Part shown: piece by piece, positions 20,073-49,936 of the stretch
Layout of the letters: every line of letters begins with the position of its first letter
Numbering within the stretch: position 1 is the first letter of the stretch
Assembly: GCF_030623445.1 (NCBI RefSeq)
Contig: NZ_CP130613.1
Location: forward strand, 3,038,001-3,102,000
Direction: 5' to 3'
Origin: Pseudogemmatithrix spongiicola
GTDB taxonomy: Bacteria; Gemmatimonadota; Gemmatimonadetes; Gemmatimonadales; Gemmatimonadaceae
DNA length: 64,000 bases
The notes under the pieces: model-generated
Told to the model about the DNA's origin: nothing
The model's input: the letters and a program-made list of their open reading frames with translations, nothing else
Database searches by the model: none
Program-made: the position numbers and the translations under genes

Positions 20073-20863
20073 CTGAACACGTGCCCGATGCGCGACCAGC
20101 GGATGTCCGTCAGGAACGGCAACGGCCGGTCGGAGTCGTCGGCGTTCCACGAGTAGTACACGAACAGCGGCTTGCCGCGCACGTTCTTGCGCGGCACGAT
20201 GCCCCAGTAGCGCGAATCCTTCGACTGATAGCGGTTGTCGCCCATCATCCAGAAGTAGCCCTCGGGGATGACCAGCGGGCCCCAGTCGTCGAGCGTGGGC
20301 CGCGCCGGTGCCGGCCCGAAGCGCGACGAATCCAGCGCGATGCGCTTCTGCCAGTCGAAGAGCGGATGCCACTCGTCGCCCGGCGCGCCGGAGCGGTCGG
20401 CCGTCTGGAAGCCGAGGCGCTGCGGCGCGCCGTTCACGTGCACCACGCCGTCGCGCGAGTAGATCGTGTCGCCCGGCATGCCGATGAGCCGCTTCACGAG
20501 GATCGGCGTCGGGTCCTCCGGCTGGTCGATCTGCAGCGGCGAGATGAACACCACGATCTCGCCGCGCTGCGGGTCGGCGTAGCCCGGCAAGTTGATGTCC
20601 GTGAACGGCACGTGCGGGCCGTAGCGCAGCTTGTTCACGAACAGCCAATCGCCGATCAGCATCGACGGGATCATCGAGCCCGAGGGAATCCGATACGCCT
20701 CGATGAGGAAGGTCCGCAGGAGCAGGAAGATCGCCAGCGTCGCGGCGATCGACTTGAAGCCCTCCCAGAACTTCTTGGCGTCGAACTTCGAGCCGCCGCC
20801 CTCGCGGGCCGCGGCGACCACGTTCTTCGGGGCGGCCTTCGAGCCGCGCTTCTTGCTTGCCAT
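20069..20863 (-). CDS. lepB: Signal peptidase I
   Basis: 264 aa inner-membrane serine protease that removes signal peptides from secreted proteins. One membrane helix (SIAATLAIFLLLRTFLIEAY) follows a basic N-terminus. Catalytic dyad: Ser63 in RIPSGSMIPSM and Lys124 in ILVKRLIGMPGD. Box E is GYFWMMGDNRYQSKDSRYWG. ATG 20861-20863 is preceded by GAGATTCCCCGT, a degenerate form of the TANNTT-N6-start pattern seen elsewhere. It heads the run lepB, ridA, membrane protein, M24, GroES-like, bacilliredoxin. A terminator for the gene upstream (SWIB) lies 36 bp away. Confidence 0.95.
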   Translation of the reverse strand: MASKKRGSKAAPKNVVAAAREGGGSKFDAKKFWEGFKSIAATLAIFLLLRTFLIEAYRIPSGSMIPSMLIGDWLFVNKLRYGPHVPFTDINLPGYADPQRGEIVVFISPLQIDQPEDPTPILVKRLIGMPGDTIYSRDGVVHVNGAPQRLGFQTADRSGAPGDEWHPLFDWQKRIALDSSRFGPAPARPTLDDWGPLVIPEGYFWMMGDNRYQSKDSRYWGIVPRKNVRGKPLFVYYSWNADDSDRPLPFLTDIRWSRIGHVFR

Positions 20864-34850: not shown

Positions 34851-34988
34851 ACGGCGTTCACCACGAAGGCACGAAGGGAGTCGCGAAAATCTCTCGGGCC
34901 CGCAACGCCAAGGAAGCAATGCTTCTTGGAGTCGCAGGCCCGAAAGTCTGTTGCAGAGCCCTTCGTGCCTTCGTGGTGAAATCCGTTA
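34851..34988. repeat. REP-like palindrome, copy 2
   Basis: About 138 bp between the convergent lipoprotein and RND pump genes, reaching the pump stop codon. Outer arms ACGGCGTTCACCACGAAGG / CCTTCGTGGTGAAATCCGT; nested arms GGGCCCGCAACGCC with its partner and CCAAGGAAGCA with TGCTTCTTGG. Same layout as copy 1, with compensating differences on both sides of the stem, which argues for selection on folding. Confidence 0.85.
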
Positions 34989-37900
34989 CGAGGTCTTGGT
35001 CGGAATCATGAACTCCTCGGTCTTCGGCCGCACCGGGAACTTGAACCACCCCGACACCTTCTCGCGCCACTCGTCCATGATCTCGTAGATCGTCGGGATC
35101 ACAAGCAGCGTCAGGACCGTGGACGTGATGGTTCCACCGATGACCGCACGCCCCAACGGAGCCCGGAAGTCCGCGCCTTCGCCGAGGCCCAGCGCCACGG
35201 GGATCATGCCGGCGATGAGTGCGAAGGTCGTCATCAGGATCGGCCGCAGGCGCACGCGCCCCGCCTCGATGATCGCCGCGCGGCGCTCCATGCCCTGCTC
35301 CTGCCCCCACTTCGCGAAGTCGATGAGCAGGATGGCGTTCTTCGCCACGATGCCCATCAGCAGGATCACGCCGATCATCGACATGATGTTCAGCGTGTCG
35401 TTCGTGATGATCAGCGCCAGCACCACGCCGATCAGCGACAGCGGCAGCGAGATGAGGATGGCGATCGGCTCGAGGAACGAGCCGAACTGCATCACGAGGA
35501 TCAGGTACATCAGCAGCAGCGCGATGCCCAGCGCCGCCAGGATGTCGCCGAAGACCTGCGCCTGGTCCTTCGCCTCGCCGCCGAAGCTCCAACGGATGCC
35601 GTCCGGCACCTGCATGCGCTGCAGTTCACGCGTGATGTCGCTGGTGACTTCGCCGAGCGAACGGCCGGAGACGTTGCCCTGCACGACGACCACGTTGTCG
35701 CGGTCGAGGTGCGAGATCTTCGCCGGTCCCAAGCCCTGCGTGACCGTCGCCAGCTGCCCCAGCGGCATCATGCGCATCGGCGCACCGCCCTGGCCACCCA
35801 CGGCGATCGGCAGGCGCTCGATGTCGCTCACCTTGGTGCGCGACTCCGGCGCGAGGCGCACGCGCACCTTGCGGTTCTCGCCCGCCGGGTCGACCCAGTC
35901 GCCGGCGTCGATGCCCGCGAAGGCCGGACGCAGCGACTGGGCGATCTGCCCCACGCTCACGCCCAGCGAACCGGCCAGCGCGCGGTCGAGCGTGATCTCG
36001 AGCTCGGGCTTCTGGCCCTTGGTCGAGAGCGACACGTCCACCGCGCCCGGCACGGCGCGCACCACCTTGAGCACCGAGTCGGCGAACGCCTGCAGCTGGC
36101 GGCCGTCGAAGCCGCGCAGCTCGAGCTGCACCTGCTTGATCGCACCACCGAAGCCCGAGGTGAACACGGCCACCGTCGCGCCGCCGATCGTCTTCACGTC
36201 CTCACGCAGGATCGCGCCGAGCTGCTCCTGCGAGATCTCGCGCGTGGCCTTGGGTGTCATGCGTACATACACGGAGCCCAGGTCCACGGCCCCGAGCGCT
36301 TCCGACGGATCCAGGCCGCCGCCCGCGCCGATCGTCGCGAACGTGTAGCGCACCTCGCCGTGCTTGCGCGCCACCTGCGCGGCCTCCTCCGTCTTCATCC
36401 GCGTGTACTCGAGGTTCGACCCCGGCGGCGTCTCCACCTGGATGATGAGCTCCGAGTTGTCGCTCACCGGCACGAAGCCGAACCCGCCGATCGTCGCCTG
36501 CAGCGCGAGCGCGCCCACGAGCGAGCCGACGGCGAGCAGGATCATCGCGAGACGATGGTCCAGCGCCCAGCCGATGACCTTGGTGTACCCGCCGGCCATG
36601 CGGTCGAACCAATTGTTGAACTTCACGAGCTGCCGCGAGATCCAGCTGCGGTGCTCGTGGTTCTCGATCTCCGGGTCCGGCCAGTACGCCGAGAGCATCG
36701 GGTCGAGCGAGAATGACACGAACAGCGACACGAGCACCGCGCAGGCGATGGTCAACGCGAAGGGCTTGAACCACTGGCCCGACAGACCGGCCATGAAGCC
36801 GATCGGCACGAACACCGCGACGATCGAGAACGTCGTCGCGGCGACGGCGAGGCCGATTTCGTCGGTGCCCTCGTGCGCCGCCCGGAAATGGTCTTTCCCC
36901 ATCTCCACGTGTCGCACGATGTTCTCGCGCACCACGATGGCGTCGTCGATCAGGATGCCGATGGCCAGCGAGAGGCCGAGCAGCGACATCGTGTTGAGCG
37001 TGAAGCCGAAGGCCCACACGGCCACGAAGCTGGCGAGCACGGAGATCGGCAGCGCGAGGCCGGTGATCACCGTCGAGCGCCAGGAATTCAGGAACAGGAA
37101 CACCACGAGCACCGTCAGCACCGCGCCTTCGACCAGCGTGCTCTGCACGTTGGCCACCGACGCCTCGACGCGCTCGCCGGAGTTGCGCACCACGTCCAGC
37201 GTGGTGCCCGTCGGCAGGCCCGGGCGCAGTTCATCGATTGCCGCGACCACGCGCTCGGCCACCGCCGTCGTCGAATAGCCCTTCGACTTCTTCACCTGGA
37301 TGCCGATGGCATCGCGGCCGTTGAACATCGCCGCCGTGCGCGGCTCGGCCGTGCCGTCGCGCGCGGTGGCGACTTCGCCGAGGCGGATGGCGCGACCACC
37401 CTTCTCGGCGACCACCAACTGCAGGAAGTCTTCCGGCGTCTCGAGCTTGCCCTTGAGGCGGATCGAGCGCTCGTCGAGCGCGCCGGTGATGCGGCCGACC
37501 GGCGCCGCGAGGTTCTGCGACTGCAGCGCGCCGACGAGCTGGGCCACGGAGATGCCCGCCGCCTCCATCGCCTCGGGACGGATCTCGACGGTGAGCTCGC
37601 GCTCCACGCCGCCGATGACGTTCGCTTCCGCGACGCCCGGGATGCCGCGCAGGATGCGCGTGATGCCAGGATCGGCGATGCGCGTGAGCGCCGGCGCGTC
37701 GAGCGTGCTCGAGTTGAGCGACATCTCGATGATCGGCTGGTCCGCGGGGTCGAAGCGCGTGAGCACCGGCTCCTTCATTTCCACCGGGAGCTCGGAGCGG
37801 ATGGCGCTGATCTTGTCGCGGATGTCCTGCGAGGCCTGCTGCAGGTCCTTCTCGAACACGAAGAACACCGTGACGTTGGCGAAGCCGTCCTGCGCCGCGC

Positions 37901-38144
37901 CGCTGATGCGGTCCACGCCCGAGATGCCGCTCACCGCCTCCTCGACGCGGTCGAGCACTTCGCGCTCGACGACGTCAGGCGAGGCGCCCGGATACGGAAT
38001 CGCGACGTTGATGATCGGCTGCTGGACGTCCGGGAACTCGTCCGTCTCCAGCTGCCAGAGCGAGAACAGCCCGAACACCACCAGTGCCAGCATCGACACG
38101 ACGGTGACCAGCGGCCGCTTGATCGCAAAGTCTGAGATGAACAT
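34986..38144 (-). CDS. RND efflux pump, HAE-1/AcrB family
   Basis: 1052 aa inner-membrane proton antiporter of a tripartite exporter. Twelve helices in two halves; the first half shows VVFLFLNSWRSTVITGLALPISVL and GILIDDAIVVRENIVRH (the helix 4 Asp pair used in proton relay), the second LMYLILVMQFGSFLEPIAILISLPLSLIG and LMGIVAKNAILLIDFA. Large periplasmic loops carry PIINVAIPYPGASPDVVEREV at the start, as in MdtBC/AcrB homologues. Metal-pump (CusA) Met triads were not seen, so a hydrophobic or drug-like substrate is expected. 12 nt after the adaptor gene; last gene of the TetR-TolC operon. Confidence 0.95.
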   Translation of the reverse strand: MFISDFAIKRPLVTVVSMLALVVFGLFSLWQLETDEFPDVQQPIINVAIPYPGASPDVVEREVLDRVEEAVSGISGVDRISGAAQDGFANVTVFFVFEKDLQQASQDIRDKISAIRSELPVEMKEPVLTRFDPADQPIIEMSLNSSTLDAPALTRIADPGITRILRGIPGVAEANVIGGVERELTVEIRPEAMEAAGISVAQLVGALQSQNLAAPVGRITGALDERSIRLKGKLETPEDFLQLVVAEKGGRAIRLGEVATARDGTAEPRTAAMFNGRDAIGIQVKKSKGYSTTAVAERVVAAIDELRPGLPTGTTLDVVRNSGERVEASVANVQSTLVEGAVLTVLVVFLFLNSWRSTVITGLALPISVLASFVAVWAFGFTLNTMSLLGLSLAIGILIDDAIVVRENIVRHVEMGKDHFRAAHEGTDEIGLAVAATTFSIVAVFVPIGFMAGLSGQWFKPFALTIACAVLVSLFVSFSLDPMLSAYWPDPEIENHEHRSWISRQLVKFNNWFDRMAGGYTKVIGWALDHRLAMILLAVGSLVGALALQATIGGFGFVPVSDNSELIIQVETPPGSNLEYTRMKTEEAAQVARKHGEVRYTFATIGAGGGLDPSEALGAVDLGSVYVRMTPKATREISQEQLGAILREDVKTIGGATVAVFTSGFGGAIKQVQLELRGFDGRQLQAFADSVLKVVRAVPGAVDVSLSTKGQKPELEITLDRALAGSLGVSVGQIAQSLRPAFAGIDAGDWVDPAGENRKVRVRLAPESRTKVSDIERLPIAVGGQGGAPMRMMPLGQLATVTQGLGPAKISHLDRDNVVVVQGNVSGRSLGEVTSDITRELQRMQVPDGIRWSFGGEAKDQAQVFGDILAALGIALLLMYLILVMQFGSFLEPIAILISLPLSLIGVVLALIITNDTLNIMSMIGVILLMGIVAKNAILLIDFAKWGQEQGMERRAAIIEAGRVRLRPILMTTFALIAGMIPVALGLGEGADFRAPLGRAVIGGTITSTVLTLLVIPTIYEIMDEWREKVSGWFKFPVRPKTEEFMIPTKTS

Positions 38145-38156
38145 CTGCTATGCGCC

Positions 38157-39332
38157 TCAGCGCTGAGTCGAAGTGTCTGACGGCGCGCTCACCTTCACGC
38201 GCGACCCGATGGTGATGCCGAGCGCGGCGCCCACGAGCACGGTGTCGCCGGCGGCGAGGCCCGTCGTGATCTCGACGCGGCCGGTGCTGCCGTCGCGCGC
38301 GCCGAGCTGCACGGGCACGCGCTCCGTGACACCGCTCTTGAGGCGCACGACCTGCGGCTGCAGCCCGCGCTCGTCCACGGCCTCCGCGGGCACCGTGAGC
38401 GTCTCCCGCGTCTCGCTGGCCACGCGCCCTTCGGCGAAGAGACCGGCGACGAGTCGCTGGCCTTGGTTGGGGATGCGCACGAAGAGCCGCACCTGCCGCG
38501 TCTGCGGATCGGCCTGCGGGTTCACGCTGGAGATGCGGCCCTCGAAGCTGCGGCCCGGGTAGCCCGTCACGCTGAAGCGCACGGGCGCGCCGATGCGCAG
38601 CATCGCGAGTTCACTGGCCGGCACGGCCGCCTCGAGGCGCATCGTGCTCGGATCGACGATCGCAAACAGCGGCGCGCCGGGGTTCACGATGTCACCCGGA
38701 TTCACGAAGCGCTCGGAGACCACGCCGTCGTACGGCGCGAGCACGTTCGCCGCATCGCGGGACTTCTCGGCCTGCGAGAGGCGCGCGCGGGCGTCGTCGA
38801 GCATGGAGCGGGCACCGAGGTCGGCACGGCGGGCGTTCTCGAGATCGCGGTCGGCGAGCGCGCCGGCCGCGTGCAGGCGCTCGGCCCGCGTGAGTTCGCG
38901 CGCCGCGAGGTCCGCCGCCTGCTGCGCGGCGGTGAAGCCGCTGCGCGCGCCGAGGTAGGCGTCCTGGATGGCACGGTCATCGATCTTGGCCAGCGACGTG
39001 CCTTTGGTGACGACGGCGCCGGGATCCACGTTCACGGCCAGCACCGCGCCCGGCACCTCGGCGCGGATCTGCGCCGTGCGCTCGGCGACGAGCGAGCCCG
39101 AGAGGATCGGCCCGATCGAGAGCGAGGTCTGTTCGGCAACGGCGACGCCTTCCGGCCCGACGTTGACGGTGACGGCCTCGGAGACGGGCGCCTCGTTGGC
39201 GTCGCCGCGTCCGCAGGCGGAGAGAGACACGAGGAGCGCGAGTGCGGCAACGCCGGCGGCGCGGAACGAACGCGAAGACATCGAAAGCATCCCCCGCAGG
39301 GCGGGCGTGTGGGAAATCATGGGAATGGACAT
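38157..39332 (-). CDS. RND efflux membrane-fusion (periplasmic adaptor) lipoprotein
   Basis: 391 aa. Lipobox LSAC after a hydrophobic segment (AAGVAALALLVSLSAC) places it as a lipid-anchored adaptor. Order: barrel-sandwich half (IRAEVPGAVLAVNVDPGAVVTKGTSLAKID), alpha-hairpin (about 100-170), second half-motif (NVLAPYDGVVSERFVNPGDIVNPGAPLFAI), beta-barrel and membrane-proximal domain. It bridges the RND pump and the TolC-like channel encoded on either side. The ATG at 39330-39332 overlaps the TetR-TolC stop as ATGA; a later Met nearer the signal (MSSRSFRAAG) is an alternative start. Confidence 0.92.
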   Translation of the reverse strand: MSIPMISHTPALRGMLSMSSRSFRAAGVAALALLVSLSACGRGDANEAPVSEAVTVNVGPEGVAVAEQTSLSIGPILSGSLVAERTAQIRAEVPGAVLAVNVDPGAVVTKGTSLAKIDDRAIQDAYLGARSGFTAAQQAADLAARELTRAERLHAAGALADRDLENARRADLGARSMLDDARARLSQAEKSRDAANVLAPYDGVVSERFVNPGDIVNPGAPLFAIVDPSTMRLEAAVPASELAMLRIGAPVRFSVTGYPGRSFEGRISSVNPQADPQTRQVRLFVRIPNQGQRLVAGLFAEGRVASETRETLTVPAEAVDERGLQPQVVRLKSGVTERVPVQLGARDGSTGRVEITTGLAAGDTVLVGAALGITIGSRVKVSAPSDTSTQR

Positions 39333-41332
39333 CAGCGGGCGCCTCCGATGGCCAGCGGGAGGTCCTTCAGGAGCGCGAGGCGCATGCGCGCGACCTCGAG
39401 GTCACGCGCCGTGGTGACGCGCTGCAGGCGGGCCTGCTCGAGTTGCACGCGGGCCTCGGTGAGTTCGACAGGCGTCGAGATGCCCTCGCTGAAGCGCACT
39501 TCGGCGATGGCGTAGGCGCGCGCGGCCTGCGCATCGGTGCCGACGGCGGCTTGGTACGCCGCCGCGGCCTGCTCGTAGGCGTTGACGGCGAGCACGGCAT
39601 CGAGCTCGGCGCCATCGCGCGTCTGCTCGAGCCGCGCGCGGGCTTCGGCGACGTTCGCTTGCGCGACCATCTTCTGGCCGGAGGTCAGCCCGCCGTTGAA
39701 CACGGGGAAGCTGAGCCCGAGCGTGACGGTCCAGTTCGGGAAGTAGAGATTGAAGTCGCTCGGCAAGAAGGTGCCGTCGGGCGGATACGCGAAGCGCTGA
39801 TAGGTGGAGCTCAGCTGCAACGCGGGCAGTCGGGCGAGACGCGCGGCGGTGAGGGCCTTCTCGGCAGCGTCGAGCTGCGCGGCGGCCTGGCGCACGGTCG
39901 CGCGCGCGGTGGCCGACGTGTCGGGTGCGAGGCTACGCGCGCCAGCGAGCGTGACGGGGGCGAGCGGCGCGGCCATCGCGGCACCTTCGTCGCGGATGGG
40001 GGTGGTGAGCGTCAGCGGCTGCGCGAGCGGCAGGCGCAGCAACTGCTTGAGGCGCAGTTGCGCGGCCTGACGGGCGCCGCGGGCCTGGATGGCCGCGGGG
40101 CGCTGGTTGTCGCGCGTGACCTGCGCCCGGAGCAGATCGAACTCCGACGCCGTGCCGACCTCGCGCGCGAGGCGCACCTGCGAGAGCGTGCGCTCGGTGA
40201 GGGCGAGCGTGGAGTCGGCGATCTCGGCAAAGCGTTCGGCGGCGACGGCGTCGTAGTAGGCCTGCGCGACGTCGAGCAGCGCCTGCGCCTTGGCCGACGA
40301 GAGCGCGATGTCCGCGGCGGAGAGTCCGGCCTCGGCGCCGGCGCGCTGCGCGGTCAGGCGGCCTGCGGTCCAGAGGTTCTGCGTCGCGCTGAGCGTGAAG
40401 ATGAAGGTGTTGGGCGCCGCGAAGATCTGCGCGAGCGGCGAGTTCGCGATGCCATCGTCACCGCCGCCGCTGCCGGAGTCGGGCGCGAACTGCTCGGAGA
40501 TGGCCTGGAACTGGTTCTGGATGGCGCGCTGGTAGTTGGCGGCGCCGTTGATTTGCGGCAGCAGTTGGCTGTTGGCCTGACGCAGCTGTCCGCGCGCGCG
40601 GTCGGCACCGGCCGCAGCGGCACGCACGCCGGCGCTACGCTGCTCCGCCATCTGCAGTGCCTCGGCGAGCGAGAGCGCCGCCGGGGCCGCGTTGGGCGCA
40701 GTGCCCTGCGCCTGCAGCGTCGATGACGCGAGGGGCAGCACGAGTAAGAGCAGTGCGACGGCCGTCGCACCGATGGCGCGCAGGACGAGGCGAACGTACG
40801 TCGCCGGCGCCTTGTCGCGCGGCGGGAACATGGAGGGCATGAGGTCTCGTCCCATGGCGTCGGCGAAGATGGTGCCGAGCAGCATCGTGGCCGCCGCCTT
40901 GAGGTCGGCAGAGGGTGGAATGAAGCGGTGCTCGACCAGCCGTTCGAAGTAGCGCAGGACTTCCGCGCGGGACTCTTCGGGGCGCTCGGCGGTGGTGTCG
41001 GCGCACTCCGGATGCTGATGCATCTCGGCGAGCGAGGAGCGGATCATGCCGGCGGACTCGAGCATGAACGCGTGGTCGGCGGCGGCCCACTCGGTGAGTT
41101 CGCCCTGCGGATCCACGGGCACCGCGGGCGGCGTCGGGCGGTCGACCGTCGCGGCGCGCGACCGCAGGGCTTCTTCGATGAGTGTCGCCTTGGAGCCAAA
41201 GAGCCGGAAGAGCGTGACTTCGTTGACACCGGCTGCTTCGGCGATGCGTCGCGTGGTTGCGCCGCGGAATCCACCCTCGGCGTAGACGCGTAGCGCCGCG
41301 TCGATGAGCTGCTGTTTGGTTGGTTCTGTCAT
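39332..41332 (-). CDS. Fusion protein: TetR-family regulator joined to TolC-like outer-membrane efflux channel
   Basis: 666 aa from ATG 41330-41332 (MTEPTKQQLIDAALRVYAEG). Residues 1-45 hold a TetR helix-turn-helix (GATTRRIAEAAGVNEVTLFRLF); residues 46-188 are an all-helical TetR ligand domain, whose final helix (APATYVRLVLRAIG) runs straight into a hydrophobic stretch (ATAVALLLLVLPLASSTLQAQ, 189-209) that looks like a signal peptide with a possible cleavage after LQA. Residues 215-666 form a complete TolC/OEP channel (SLAEALQMAEQRSAGV ... VTLGLSFPVFNGGLTSG ... FSEGISTPVELTEARVQLEQARL). First gene of the operon with adaptor and RND pump. A 20-bp palindrome lies in its promoter. Internal Met codons at residues 165 and 168 could restart translation to make TolC alone. 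Confidence 0.88.
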   Translation of the reverse strand: MTEPTKQQLIDAALRVYAEGGFRGATTRRIAEAAGVNEVTLFRLFGSKATLIEEALRSRAATVDRPTPPAVPVDPQGELTEWAAADHAFMLESAGMIRSSLAEMHQHPECADTTAERPEESRAEVLRYFERLVEHRFIPPSADLKAAATMLLGTIFADAMGRDLMPSMFPPRDKAPATYVRLVLRAIGATAVALLLLVLPLASSTLQAQGTAPNAAPAALSLAEALQMAEQRSAGVRAAAAGADRARGQLRQANSQLLPQINGAANYQRAIQNQFQAISEQFAPDSGSGGGDDGIANSPLAQIFAAPNTFIFTLSATQNLWTAGRLTAQRAGAEAGLSAADIALSSAKAQALLDVAQAYYDAVAAERFAEIADSTLALTERTLSQVRLAREVGTASEFDLLRAQVTRDNQRPAAIQARGARQAAQLRLKQLLRLPLAQPLTLTTPIRDEGAAMAAPLAPVTLAGARSLAPDTSATARATVRQAAAQLDAAEKALTAARLARLPALQLSSTYQRFAYPPDGTFLPSDFNLYFPNWTVTLGLSFPVFNGGLTSGQKMVAQANVAEARARLEQTRDGAELDAVLAVNAYEQAAAAYQAAVGTDAQAARAYAIAEVRFSEGISTPVELTEARVQLEQARLQRVTTARDLEVARMRLALLKDLPLAIGGAR

Positions 41333-41364: not shown

Positions 41365-41392
41365 ATTAAAGCAAGCGACCACTTGCTTACAA
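41365..41392 (-). promoter_or_regulatory. Promoter of the tetR-tolC efflux operon
   Basis: Minus-strand -35 TTGTAA (complement at 41387-41392) and -10 TTTAAT (41365-41370) with a 16-bp spacer; four and five of six bases match the sigma-70 consensus. The predicted start site lies about 26 bp before the ATG at 41332. The surrounding 41333-41550 region is visibly richer in A+T than the rest of the window. Confidence 0.55.
41369..41388. promoter_or_regulatory. Candidate TetR operator: AAGCAAG-N6-CTTGCTT
   Basis: Perfect inverted repeat with 7-bp arms (41369-41375 and 41382-41388) and 6-bp spacer. It fills the spacer between the -35 and -10 boxes of the operon promoter and touches both, the classical position for TetR-family repression. 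Repressor would be the TetR half of the fusion protein encoded 37 bp downstream; this pairing is inference. Confidence 0.6.
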
Positions 41393-43014: not shown

Positions 43015-45404
<2,390 letters not shown>

Positions 45405-46918: not shown

Positions 46919-49900
46919 GTGACGCTGCTTCTCACGCTGCTCTTCATCTGCTCGGGCGCGGCCGGGCTGGTCTACGAATCCCTGTGGAGCCGCTACCTCG
47001 GGCTCCTCGTCGGCCACGGGGCGTACGCGCAGATCCTCGTGCTCGTCATCTTCCTCGGGGGGATGGCCGGCGGCGCCGCATGGATCGCGCGCCGCGCGAC
47101 GCGCATCGGCGATCCGCTGCGCTGGTACGCCATCGTCGAGGCGCTGGTCGGCCTGCTCGGCCTCGCGTTCCATGACGTGTTCGTGGCGACCAGCGCGTTC
47201 GCCTACGACACGCTGTTCCCCGCGCTCGGCGGCACGGCGACGGTCACGATCGCCAAGTGGACCATTGCCGCCCTGCTGATCCTGCCGCAATCGCTGCTGC
47301 TGGGCGCGACCTTCCCGCTCATGACGGCGGGCGTGCTGCGCCGCCAGGCGGCGGACCGCGCGGGCCGGACCATCGGGCTGCTGTACTTCGCGAACTCGTT
47401 GGGCGCGGCGATCGGCGTGCTCGTCGCCGGGTTCTGGTTGCTCGAGATCGCGGGACTGCCGGGCACGCTTATCGTGGCGGCCGTCGTGAACCTGCTCGTC
47501 GCCGCTGCGGCGTACCTGCTCTCGGGACGGCAGCCACTCGCCGCGCGCGACGCCGCCGATACGCCGAGCGTCGCTGCGGCACCCGACGCTACGGACGCAG
47601 GCGCCGCGCTGCCCAGCGGGGCGTTTGCGCAGCTCCTGCTCAGCGTCGCGTTCGGCACGGCGGTGGCCTCGTTCATCTACGAGATCGCCTGGATCCGCAT
47701 GCTCTCGCTCGTGCTGGGCAGCGCCACGCACGCATTTGAGTTGATGCTCTCGGCGTTCATCCTCGGCTTGGCGATCGGCGCCTTCGTGATTCGCCGCCGT
47801 GCTGATGGCAGCGGCGATCCGCTGCGCCAGCTCGGACTCGTGCAGGTAGCGATGGGCGCGGCGGCGATCCTCTCGCTGGGCTGGTATCTCGATGCGTTCG
47901 GGTGGATGGCCACGCTGATGGAAACCGTGCAGCGCAACGAAGCGGGCTACGCGGCATTCCATGTGGGGCGCTACGCGTTGGCGATGGCCATCATGCTGCC
48001 CGCGACGATCTGCGCGGGCATGACGCTGCCGCTCATCACGCGTGCGCTGCTGCGCAGCGCCCGCGGCGAACGCGCCATCGGGACGGTGTACGCCTGGAAC
48101 ACCGTCGGGTCGATCATCGGCGCGAGTGCGGCAGGACTCTGGTTACTGCCCGCCATCGGCGTGCGCGGCACGTTGATCCTCGGCGGGACGATCGATCTCG
48201 CGTTGGGTTGCTGGCTGCTGTGGGTCGCCGCGCCGTTGCGCGCCGGTGGCCGACGCACCGCCACTCTCGCCCTCGGCGCGACGGCGGCGCTGGTGCTCGT
48301 GTCGTCGCTGAGCCCCGGCTTCGACCCCTCGGTGCTCTCGAGCGGCGTGTTCCGCTACGGCACGGTTGCGGAGGCCGGTTCGCGCGACATCCTCTTCTAC
48401 CGCGACGGACGCACCGCCAGCGTGAGCGTGCAGATGGGCAGCGACAGCGGCTTCACGCTGGCCACCAACGGCAAGCCCGATGCTTCGCTGCAGGCGGTGT
48501 GGTTCGAGCCACCGCGCCCGGATTCGCTGCGGCCGGCACTGGCCAGCGACAACGCCACGCAGGCACTGCTCGCGCTCATCACGCTGGCGCATGCGCCGAC
48601 GGCGCGCGAGGCCGCGGTGATCGGGCACGGCGCGGGCATGACGACGCACTTCCTGCTCGGGTCGCCGACGATGGAGCGCGTAACGACCATCGAGATCGAG
48701 CCGGAGATGGTCGAGGCCGCGAAGCAACTCATGCCGGCGAACGCCCGTGCCTTCGAGGACCCGCGATCGGTCACGGTGATTGACGACGCGCGCGCCTTCT
48801 TCGCGGCGACGAGCCACCGCTTCGATGTGATCGTGTCGGAACCGTCGAATCCCTGGGTGAGCGGCGTGTCGGCGCTGTTCACCGAGGAGTTCTACGCGCG
48901 GGCGGCACGCCAGCTCGCACCGGGCGGCGTGTTCGGGCAGTGGCTGCACTTGTATGAGATCGAGGACGCGCTGGTCTTGGGCATCCTCAAGGCGCTGTCC
49001 ACGCAGTTCCGGTCGTATGAGCTGTATCTCACGAACGACGTCGACGTGCTGGTCGTCGCCTCGAATGCCGATTCACTGCCCACGCCGGACTGGTCGGTGT
49101 TCCGCACGGAGGACGTCGCGCTGGATCTCGCGCGCTTCCGTCCGCTCAGCGACGCCGCGCTACGCGCGACTTGGCTCGTGGGCCATCGCCAGCTCGGGCC
49201 GGCACTCGCGCGCGACTCCGCGTCGAACAGCGATTTCTACCCACAGCTCGACCTGCGCGCGGAGCGGGCGCGGTTCCTGGGCGTGGAGGCCGATGCCTTC
49301 GCTTCGATGCACAGTGATCGCTTTGCGCTCGCCGATGCAATGGCCGAGCGGGTGATTGCGCCGTTGGGACTGGCCCGCGCGCCGCTTTCGCACGCGCGCT
49401 TCGATGCGCAGGCGAAGTCGGTGCAGATGCGGCAGCGTGTCTCCGGCAACGACACCAGCGCGGTGCTGGTCGGCGTGCGCGCCGCGCAGCTGCGCGATGC
49501 GCGCCTTTCGCTCGAGCTCGCGAGCGATCGTCCGCCGCCGGACTGGCCGCTCTGGTTCGCCGAGGTGTTGCAGGTGGAGCGCGACCGGCACCAAGGCACG
49601 ATGGGTGTGGTAGACGCGGCCTGGTATGCGCAAGTCGAGCGCTATCTCACACGGCAGCGCGCCCCAGAGGGTGCGCAGTCGGCGTGGCGCTTCTTGCGCG
49701 CGGCGGTGACCTACGATTGGCCGACAGCGGCAGCGGAGGTGCGCACGCAGATCGCCGAGCGTGACCGCGGCCGTGCGTGGCTACCGCCGGCGTTGCTGTT
49801 GGACGCTGCAGTGCTCGCGCGCCTGCGCACCGGGGACGTGACCGGCGCGCAGGCGGCGTTTGCGCGGCTGGGCAATGCCGCGGGGCGCAGGCCCGAAGAC

Positions 49901-49936
49901 CTGCGCACCCGCATGCTCGACGCCCTGGTGAACTAG
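46919..49936 (+). CDS. Large fusion: MFS-like membrane domain plus spermidine synthase-like domain
   Basis: 1005 aa, GTG start. Residues 1-430 form about twelve helices in two repeats beginning LLFICSGAAGLVYESLWSRYL and SVAFGTAVASFIYEIAWIRML, typical of MFS-like spermidine-synthase proteins. A Rossmann aminopropyl/methyl-transferase domain follows: AAVIGHGAGMTTHFLLG, VTTIEIEPEMVEAAKQ, VTVIDDARAFFAAT, DVIVSEPSNPWVSGVSALFTEEFY. The last 200 residues are helical and unassigned. The motif-I loop GHGAG replaces the GxGDG of true spermidine synthases, so polyamine synthesis is uncertain; a membrane-linked SAM-dependent modification is an alternative. Overlaps the convergent M16 gene by 4 nt. Confidence 0.8.
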   Translation: MTLLLTLLFICSGAAGLVYESLWSRYLGLLVGHGAYAQILVLVIFLGGMAGGAAWIARRATRIGDPLRWYAIVEALVGLLGLAFHDVFVATSAFAYDTLFPALGGTATVTIAKWTIAALLILPQSLLLGATFPLMTAGVLRRQAADRAGRTIGLLYFANSLGAAIGVLVAGFWLLEIAGLPGTLIVAAVVNLLVAAAAYLLSGRQPLAARDAADTPSVAAAPDATDAGAALPSGAFAQLLLSVAFGTAVASFIYEIAWIRMLSLVLGSATHAFELMLSAFILGLAIGAFVIRRRADGSGDPLRQLGLVQVAMGAAAILSLGWYLDAFGWMATLMETVQRNEAGYAAFHVGRYALAMAIMLPATICAGMTLPLITRALLRSARGERAIGTVYAWNTVGSIIGASAAGLWLLPAIGVRGTLILGGTIDLALGCWLLWVAAPLRAGGRRTATLALGATAALVLVSSLSPGFDPSVLSSGVFRYGTVAEAGSRDILFYRDGRTASVSVQMGSDSGFTLATNGKPDASLQAVWFEPPRPDSLRPALASDNATQALLALITLAHAPTAREAAVIGHGAGMTTHFLLGSPTMERVTTIEIEPEMVEAAKQLMPANARAFEDPRSVTVIDDARAFFAATSHRFDVIVSEPSNPWVSGVSALFTEEFYARAARQLAPGGVFGQWLHLYEIEDALVLGILKALSTQFRSYELYLTNDVDVLVVASNADSLPTPDWSVFRTEDVALDLARFRPLSDAALRATWLVGHRQLGPALARDSASNSDFYPQLDLRAERARFLGVEADAFASMHSDRFALADAMAERVIAPLGLARAPLSHARFDAQAKSVQMRQRVSGNDTSAVLVGVRAAQLRDARLSLELASDRPPPDWPLWFAEVLQVERDRHQGTMGVVDAAWYAQVERYLTRQRAPEGAQSAWRFLRAAVTYDWPTAAAEVRTQIAERDRGRAWLPPALLLDAAVLARLRTGDVTGAQAAFARLGNAAGRRPEDLRTRMLDALVN

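Follow-up and report, generated by a model that had tools for sequence, protein, structure and literature searches.

The tetR-tolC fusion gene and its operon

The window analyzed here is a 64,000-nt stretch of the Pseudogemmatithrix spongiicola genome (GCF_030623445.1, contig NZ_CP130613.1, positions 3,038,001 to 3,102,000); the genome is a single contig of 3.26 Mb rated 100% complete. On the minus strand of the window, an uninterrupted frame of 666 codons runs from an ATG at 41332 to the end of a TGA stop at 39332, and it encodes a genuine fusion of a complete TetR repressor with a complete TolC/OprM-type outer-membrane channel (tetR-tolC fusion gene, 39332 to 41332, 666 aa). An earlier reading made from the letters of the window, referred to below as the sequence-only reading, had described such a frame at the head of a resistance-nodulation-division (RND) pump operon; its coordinates are right, and the open reading frame (ORF), the Pfam matches, and the relatives agree that the frame is real. 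TetR_N (PF00440) matches residues 9 to 55 of the fusion protein with an E value of 3.8e-14 and 52.6 bits against a cutoff of 24, and OEP (PF02321) matches two stretches in the second part of the same chain with an E value of 1.3e-46. The TetR half (residues 1 to 190; 40763 to 41332, minus strand) was assigned using TetR_N, the TetR fold in the structure model, and dN/dS, and it holds a helix-turn-helix (HTH; residues 9 to 55; 41308 to 41168, minus strand; Pfam TetR_N) followed by a TetR ligand domain at about residues 56 to 188. The mature TolC/outer membrane factor (OMF) half (residues 209 to 666; 39335 to 40708, minus strand) was assigned using Pfam OEP, an NCBIfam TolC-type match, Foldseek matches to OprM/TolC, and dN/dS.

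Directly downstream on the same strand lie the operon partners of a TolC/OMF protein, namely the gene for an RND periplasmic adaptor (38157 to 39332; NCBIfam RND_mfp, E value of 7e-65; Pfam HlyD_D23) and the gene for a 1,052-aa RND pump (34986 to 38144; Pfam ACR_tran, E value of 6.4e-260). The adaptor start shares the last base of the fusion stop (TGATG), which makes an overlap of 1 nt; the sequence-only reading had the adaptor and pump genes in the right place but gave the overlap as 4 nt, its sole factual slip.

A structure model of the fusion protein was built using AlphaFold2 from the alignment of 21 fused homologues (mean pLDDT of 74.6, pTM of 0.44). The model consists of a TetR-like helical bundle, low-confidence residues 192 to 216, and an OMF-like half. 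The modeled TetR half is all helical, as in the TetR fold, with helices spanning residues 6 to 187. A Foldseek search with the model returned TetR regulators at TM(target) of 0.65 to 0.72, including a TetR-DNA complex, MexL, and NalC, and also OprM, TolC, and CusC with E values of 1e-8 to 1e-6, the superposition of the model on these being loose. Both folds were recovered from one single-chain model.

Conservation in the genus

The genus was sampled using 17 genomes, the window's own included. The fused frame is intact in 14 of them, the window's and 13 others, at 63 to 77% identity to the window protein, and in two metagenome-assembled genomes (MAGs; G004 and G013), the fused junction is intact and the frame is broken later in the TolC part. 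Among the 17 genomes searched, one that is 71% complete gave no match to the locus, and the junction is in frame in all 16 genus genomes that have it. Neither chance nor error accounts for the fused frame, because 13 more intact frames and 2 more intact junctions are found in the genus. The fusion has been kept through several in-frame linker indels, and no reversal is present in the sample. The pair is present once in the window's genome; the remaining matches to TolC and to TetR there are 26 to 38% identical.

Ancestral arrangement and repeated origin

The survey for fusions covered 395 genomes of the window's phylum, and about 90 loci were inspected. In more distant relatives, tetR and tolC are separate neighboring genes; these relatives include other genera of the family and, farther away, MAGs labeled Vicinamibacterales and Acidimicrobiia. 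The two genes often overlap by 1 or 4 nt, and in other loci, they lie within tens of nucleotides of each other. The comparison of loci indicates that adjacent, separate genes are the ancestral state. The sequence-only reading had held that close relatives with separate genes and a stop codon at the junction would point to a local mutation or a sequencing error; separate genes do exist, but only outside the genus, where they appear to represent this ancestral state and not a local error, and within the genus the fusion is general. At one locus (L042/L070), tetR and tolC are separate yet in the same frame, the tolC ATG lying a few nucleotides past the tetR stop, and this locus, which a single stop codon keeps from being fused, likely resembles the intermediate.

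Three more fused groups were found, two in a sister genus (L022, L069, L071, and L072; L086 and L087) and one in another genus (L099). The fused protein of L087 carries an 11-residue tandem duplication (AIAQANLIDAQ) in its TolC half, at about columns 632 to 642 of alignment A1, that is absent from its near twin L086. No extra fusions were found among loci with a long TolC frame; 20 more loci were fetched, and all 19 readable ones are separate.

A tree of both halves concatenated, comprising 70 loci, needs four changes between the fused and the separate state, all of them forced by starred (well-supported) branches, and for this reason, about four independent fusions in one bacterial family are suggested. 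A careful tree of the main clade has 3 changes (5 to 95% range of 200 bootstrap trees, 3 to 3; none with a single change), counts of changes alone being unable to separate gain from loss. Under a single origin, several losses would be needed, each restoring both the stop and the start. The junctions are also unlike each other. In the genus of the window, the TetR tail and stop and the tolC start and n-region are all lost, and the helix YVRLFLRALGAT runs directly into the hydrophobic core; the other fused groups keep about 12 to 21 linker residues, rich in basic ones. A single origin of all fusions was rejected on the basis of the 3 changes in the main clade and of these junctions, which differ in sequence and in length.

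Junction and export signal

The junction (residues 181 to 208; 40709 to 40792, minus strand) was delimited using the alignment of the 21 fused proteins and consists of RLVLRAIGAT (the end of the last TetR helix, acting as n-region), the core AVALLLLVLPLA, and the LQA|Q motif. The segment after the last TetR helix is like the signal peptides of separate TolC proteins in its hydropathy, its upstream positive charge, and its spacing to A|Q. The KD15 mean of the hydrophobic core is 2.36 in fused versus 1.94 in separate proteins, which among related sequences is only a trend, and the hydrophobic segment has a KD19 of 2.3. When searched for automatically, a motif of the AQ type turned up in 21 of the 23 fused loci and in 47 of the 49 separate ones. 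The two fused loci missed in this search are the frame-broken ones, whose junctions show AIAQ and TMAQ by eye, and L099 carries SQ instead of AQ after the hydrophobic core. The LQA site proposed in the sequence-only reading is, as a motif, a conserved signal-peptidase-type site at LQA|Q in the fused proteins, and the cut site of the window protein is predicted at A208|Q209 (LQA|QG).

The signal-like segment is internal (residues about 181 to 208) in all 21 intact fused proteins, in place of the N-terminal Sec signal of TolC/OMF proteins. The mature half agrees with TolC/OMF proteins in all other tests, and the departure therefore lies in the precursor and not in the channel. A Sec signal whose positive end lies in the cytoplasm keeps everything ahead of the signal inside, and the TetR half, which precedes the signal here, would therefore not be exported. 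Two signal peptidase I proteins (PF10502) and two M50 site-2-protease-type proteins (PF02163) are encoded in the window's genome. One of the two signal peptidase I genes lies in the window itself, at 20153 to 20761 (G000:C1:3058153-3058761).

Repressor half and predicted operator

Within the genus, the HTH has a median dN/dS of 0.135, and the two halves are nearly alike, at 0.28 (TetR half) and 0.29 (TolC); with synonymous sites near saturation, these values are rough. Identity within the genus is 0.66 for the TetR half, 0.73 for TolC, and 0.80 for the HTH. These figures indicate that the TetR half is still under selection.

The predicted operator (AAGCAAG-N6-CTTGCTT) lies at 41369 to 41388, and its core GCAAGCGACCACTTGC at 41371 to 41386 is 39 to 54 nt upstream of the ATG. 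The palindrome GYAAGYNNNNRCTTRC has a single match in the 3.26-Mb genome, at 41371 to 41386, just upstream of the fusion gene. All 23 fused loci and 47 of the 49 separate ones (70/72) have it upstream, often in two copies, as would be expected of a TetR-family operator; it is absent from 304 kb of other sequence of the same loci and occurs 0 to 6 times in other genomes of the family. Most fused loci (L009, L012 to L015, L017 to L019, L021, and L022) have two copies 22 to 23 nt apart, and a single intact copy is present in the window's genome and in L010 and L011, which are closely related to it. A promoter scan of the region upstream of the fusion gene found no sigma-70 consensus. A local autorepressor acting via the upstream palindrome is the most economical reading of this arrangement. 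That the TetR half is a working repressor, as the sequence-only reading had supposed, is borne out to the extent that it is still selected and has a conserved predicted operator.

Other genes in the window

Two divergent IS110-family transposase genes (DEDD_Tnp_IS110 and Transposase_20) occupy 43015 to 45404, with their 5' ends overlapping as listed by the ORF finder. At 46919 to 49936, a 1,005-aa protein is encoded that has hydrophobic stretches and a spermidine-synthase-like domain at residues 548 to 704.

Proposed mechanism and alternatives

We infer that the locus makes one TetR-signal-TolC polyprotein, that its cytoplasmic TetR half autorepresses the operon from the inner membrane, and that signal peptidase frees TolC; this explanation is considered the best one and fairly probable. 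The TetR half would fold in the cytoplasm. Its last helix, which has conserved arginines, would serve as n-region for a signal peptide inside the chain, and everything behind this signal would be passed to Sec. After a cut by signal peptidase I behind residue 208 (LQA|QG), a TolC-type channel of the normal kind would reach the outer membrane, and the repressor, now ending in a hydrophobic tail, would remain on the inner membrane in a 1:1 ratio with the channel. The tethered TetR half would bind the one palindrome that lies ahead of its gene and autorepress the operon until released by a ligand, and a site-2 protease may later free it from the membrane. The sequence-only reading had likewise considered a membrane-tethered repressor, and it had added that export and DNA binding might compete in an uncut chain and that channel jamming might feed back on expression.

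Several points weigh against this explanation. The full-length product and its cleavage are predictions made from sequence, the signal assignment is based on motif, hydropathy, and charge, and a cleavable signal peptide behind a folded domain of 180 residues is unusual. TolC could be started separately at Met165, its signal peptide then being 44 residues long, and an SD-like (Shine-Dalgarno-like) run, by chance or otherwise, lies ahead of Met165 in about a third of the fused loci. The relatives appear to be mostly draft or metagenome assemblies, and L099, one of the four fusions, comes from a single such assembly. The roughness of the dN/dS values belongs with these points.

One sub-case of the polyprotein explanation concerns the benefit and is given somewhat less than an even chance: the chain would be made and cut as proposed, the tether would have no regulatory role, and the recurrence would come from easy loss of a stop. 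The same products without a new function are compatible with all data. The ancestral tetR and tolC, with overlaps of 1 to 4 nt or spacings within tens of nucleotides, are sometimes already in the same frame, the operator is alike in fused and separate forms, and coding constraint is alike in both halves. A purely neutral tether fits less well with a fusion that is kept by all 16 genus genomes in which the locus occurs, in spite of several in-frame indels in the linker and with no reversal in the sample, and with the tendency of fused signal cores toward greater hydrophobicity.

It is rather unlikely that the one frame yields two products, a TetR-containing chain and a TolC begun internally at Met165 or Met168 with a signal peptide of 40 to 44 residues starting inside tetR. 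These candidate starts (40829 to 40840, minus strand; Met165 at 40840 to 40838 and Met168 at 40831 to 40829) lie closer to the junction than any other ATG; a single fused protein lacks Met164/165, and the frame from this Met to the signal core is open in all. Met165, however, lies within a TetR motif (RDxMP) shared by most separate TetR proteins, and it therefore did not arise with the fusion. In the separate loci, tolC has an ordinary start codon just ahead of the signal peptide; this start has vanished in the fused forms, and no conserved start codon was found between RDxMP (Met165) and the signal core in any fused group. Anti-Shine-Dalgarno pairing at Met165 of the fused loci has a mean of -3.2 versus a background of -2.2, with pairing of -5 or stronger at 30% of the fused-locus Met codons versus 17% of background codons. 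No conserved Shine-Dalgarno sequence was found ahead of Met165 or Met168 in the fused loci, and the internal Met has none in whole subclades (L018, L021, L022, L069, L071, and L072), whereas the adaptor starts pair strongly (mean of -7.7; 76% at -5 or better). Shine-Dalgarno strength is a weak guide here, because none of the 21 fused loci shows an SD-like sequence where translation of the tetR part begins, at the head of the operon. As the operon's first gene lacks such a sequence and the palindrome in some fused loci ends about 8 nt ahead of the ATG, the operon mRNA may be leaderless. The internal start that the sequence-only reading had offered as an alternative thus has its candidate methionines but is weakened by the TetR motif shared with most separate TetR proteins and by the missing conserved Shine-Dalgarno sequence, and one continuous translation of TetR and TolC is favored by these comparisons.

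A TetR half in decay, retained solely to lengthen the signal peptide, would agree with an identity below that of TolC (0.66 versus 0.73), but this is very improbable with an HTH identity of 0.80, an HTH dN/dS of about 0.14, and a palindrome that is conserved and unique in the genome; a decayed TetR half was rejected on dN/dS and the palindrome. Removal of the stop by a sequencing, assembly, or local mutation error, to which the separate tetR and tolC genes in other genera might point, is given practically no credence and was ruled out by the 13 further genus assemblies with the intact fused frame at 63 to 77% identity.

Relation to known systems and significance

Known repressors of the AcrR, MexL, and NalC type are separate soluble dimers. 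These TetR repressors of RND operons are like the present one in TetR_N, the TetR fold, a palindrome at their own promoter region, and downstream RND genes; unlike them, the repressor here continues into an outer-membrane channel. TolC/OprM factors share with the fusion protein the two OEP stretches, the OMF fold, an A-x-A-type site, and an adaptor and RND pump in the operon, whereas here a DNA-binding protein of about 180 residues precedes the signal peptide, which lacks its own start codon. ToxR, CadC, and TcpP also have an N-terminal cytoplasmic DNA-binding part, one hydrophobic segment, and an exported part, but what is exported here belongs to a pump and would, by prediction, be released by cleavage. 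Transmembrane transcription regulators (membrane-bound one-component) are common according to a survey in whose main text TetR and TolC are not mentioned (PMC10269533). The anti-sigma factor RsiV has a cytoplasmic regulatory domain and one transmembrane segment, and it is cut by signal peptidase after that segment and then by a site-2 protease (PMC9044953). The fusion protein is like RsiV in its cytoplasmic regulatory domain, its single putative transmembrane segment, the predicted signal peptidase site behind that segment (the fused sequences retain the cleavage-type motif xxA|Q behind their hydrophobic core), and a possible site-2 cut; cleavage of RsiV is triggered by lysozyme, whereas that of the fusion protein is expected to be constitutive, and its exported half is a channel. 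No earlier description of a TetR-TolC fusion was found in the openly accessible literature, most subscription journals being outside the search. Membrane-bound regulators and regulators cut by signal peptidase are kinds already known, and the TetR-TolC fusion is a variant of them for which no description was found in the open literature.

The locus would represent a natural polyprotein of a cytoplasmic repressor and an outer-membrane channel, with products ending in different compartments. For annotation, it is a warning that such fused frames are real and not missed stops. Because the fusion recurs and is conserved throughout the genus, two questions can be tested: whether a TetR repressor held at the membrane is useful for sensing efflux substrates, and whether a folded DNA-binding domain can precede a cleavable Sec signal. 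Speculatively, tethering could improve the sensing of membrane-soluble pump substrates or capture the operon at the membrane during expression. We tentatively put forward, as a possibility that is on balance doubtful, that the repressor is the built-in leader of the channel it controls: each new channel would leave one repressor at its own export site, where it would meet both membrane-dissolved substrates and the operator, pulled there by coupled transcription, translation, and export, an arrangement that would have arisen about four times in one family. If true, the transcription of the operon and its export state would be linked through one covalent chain.

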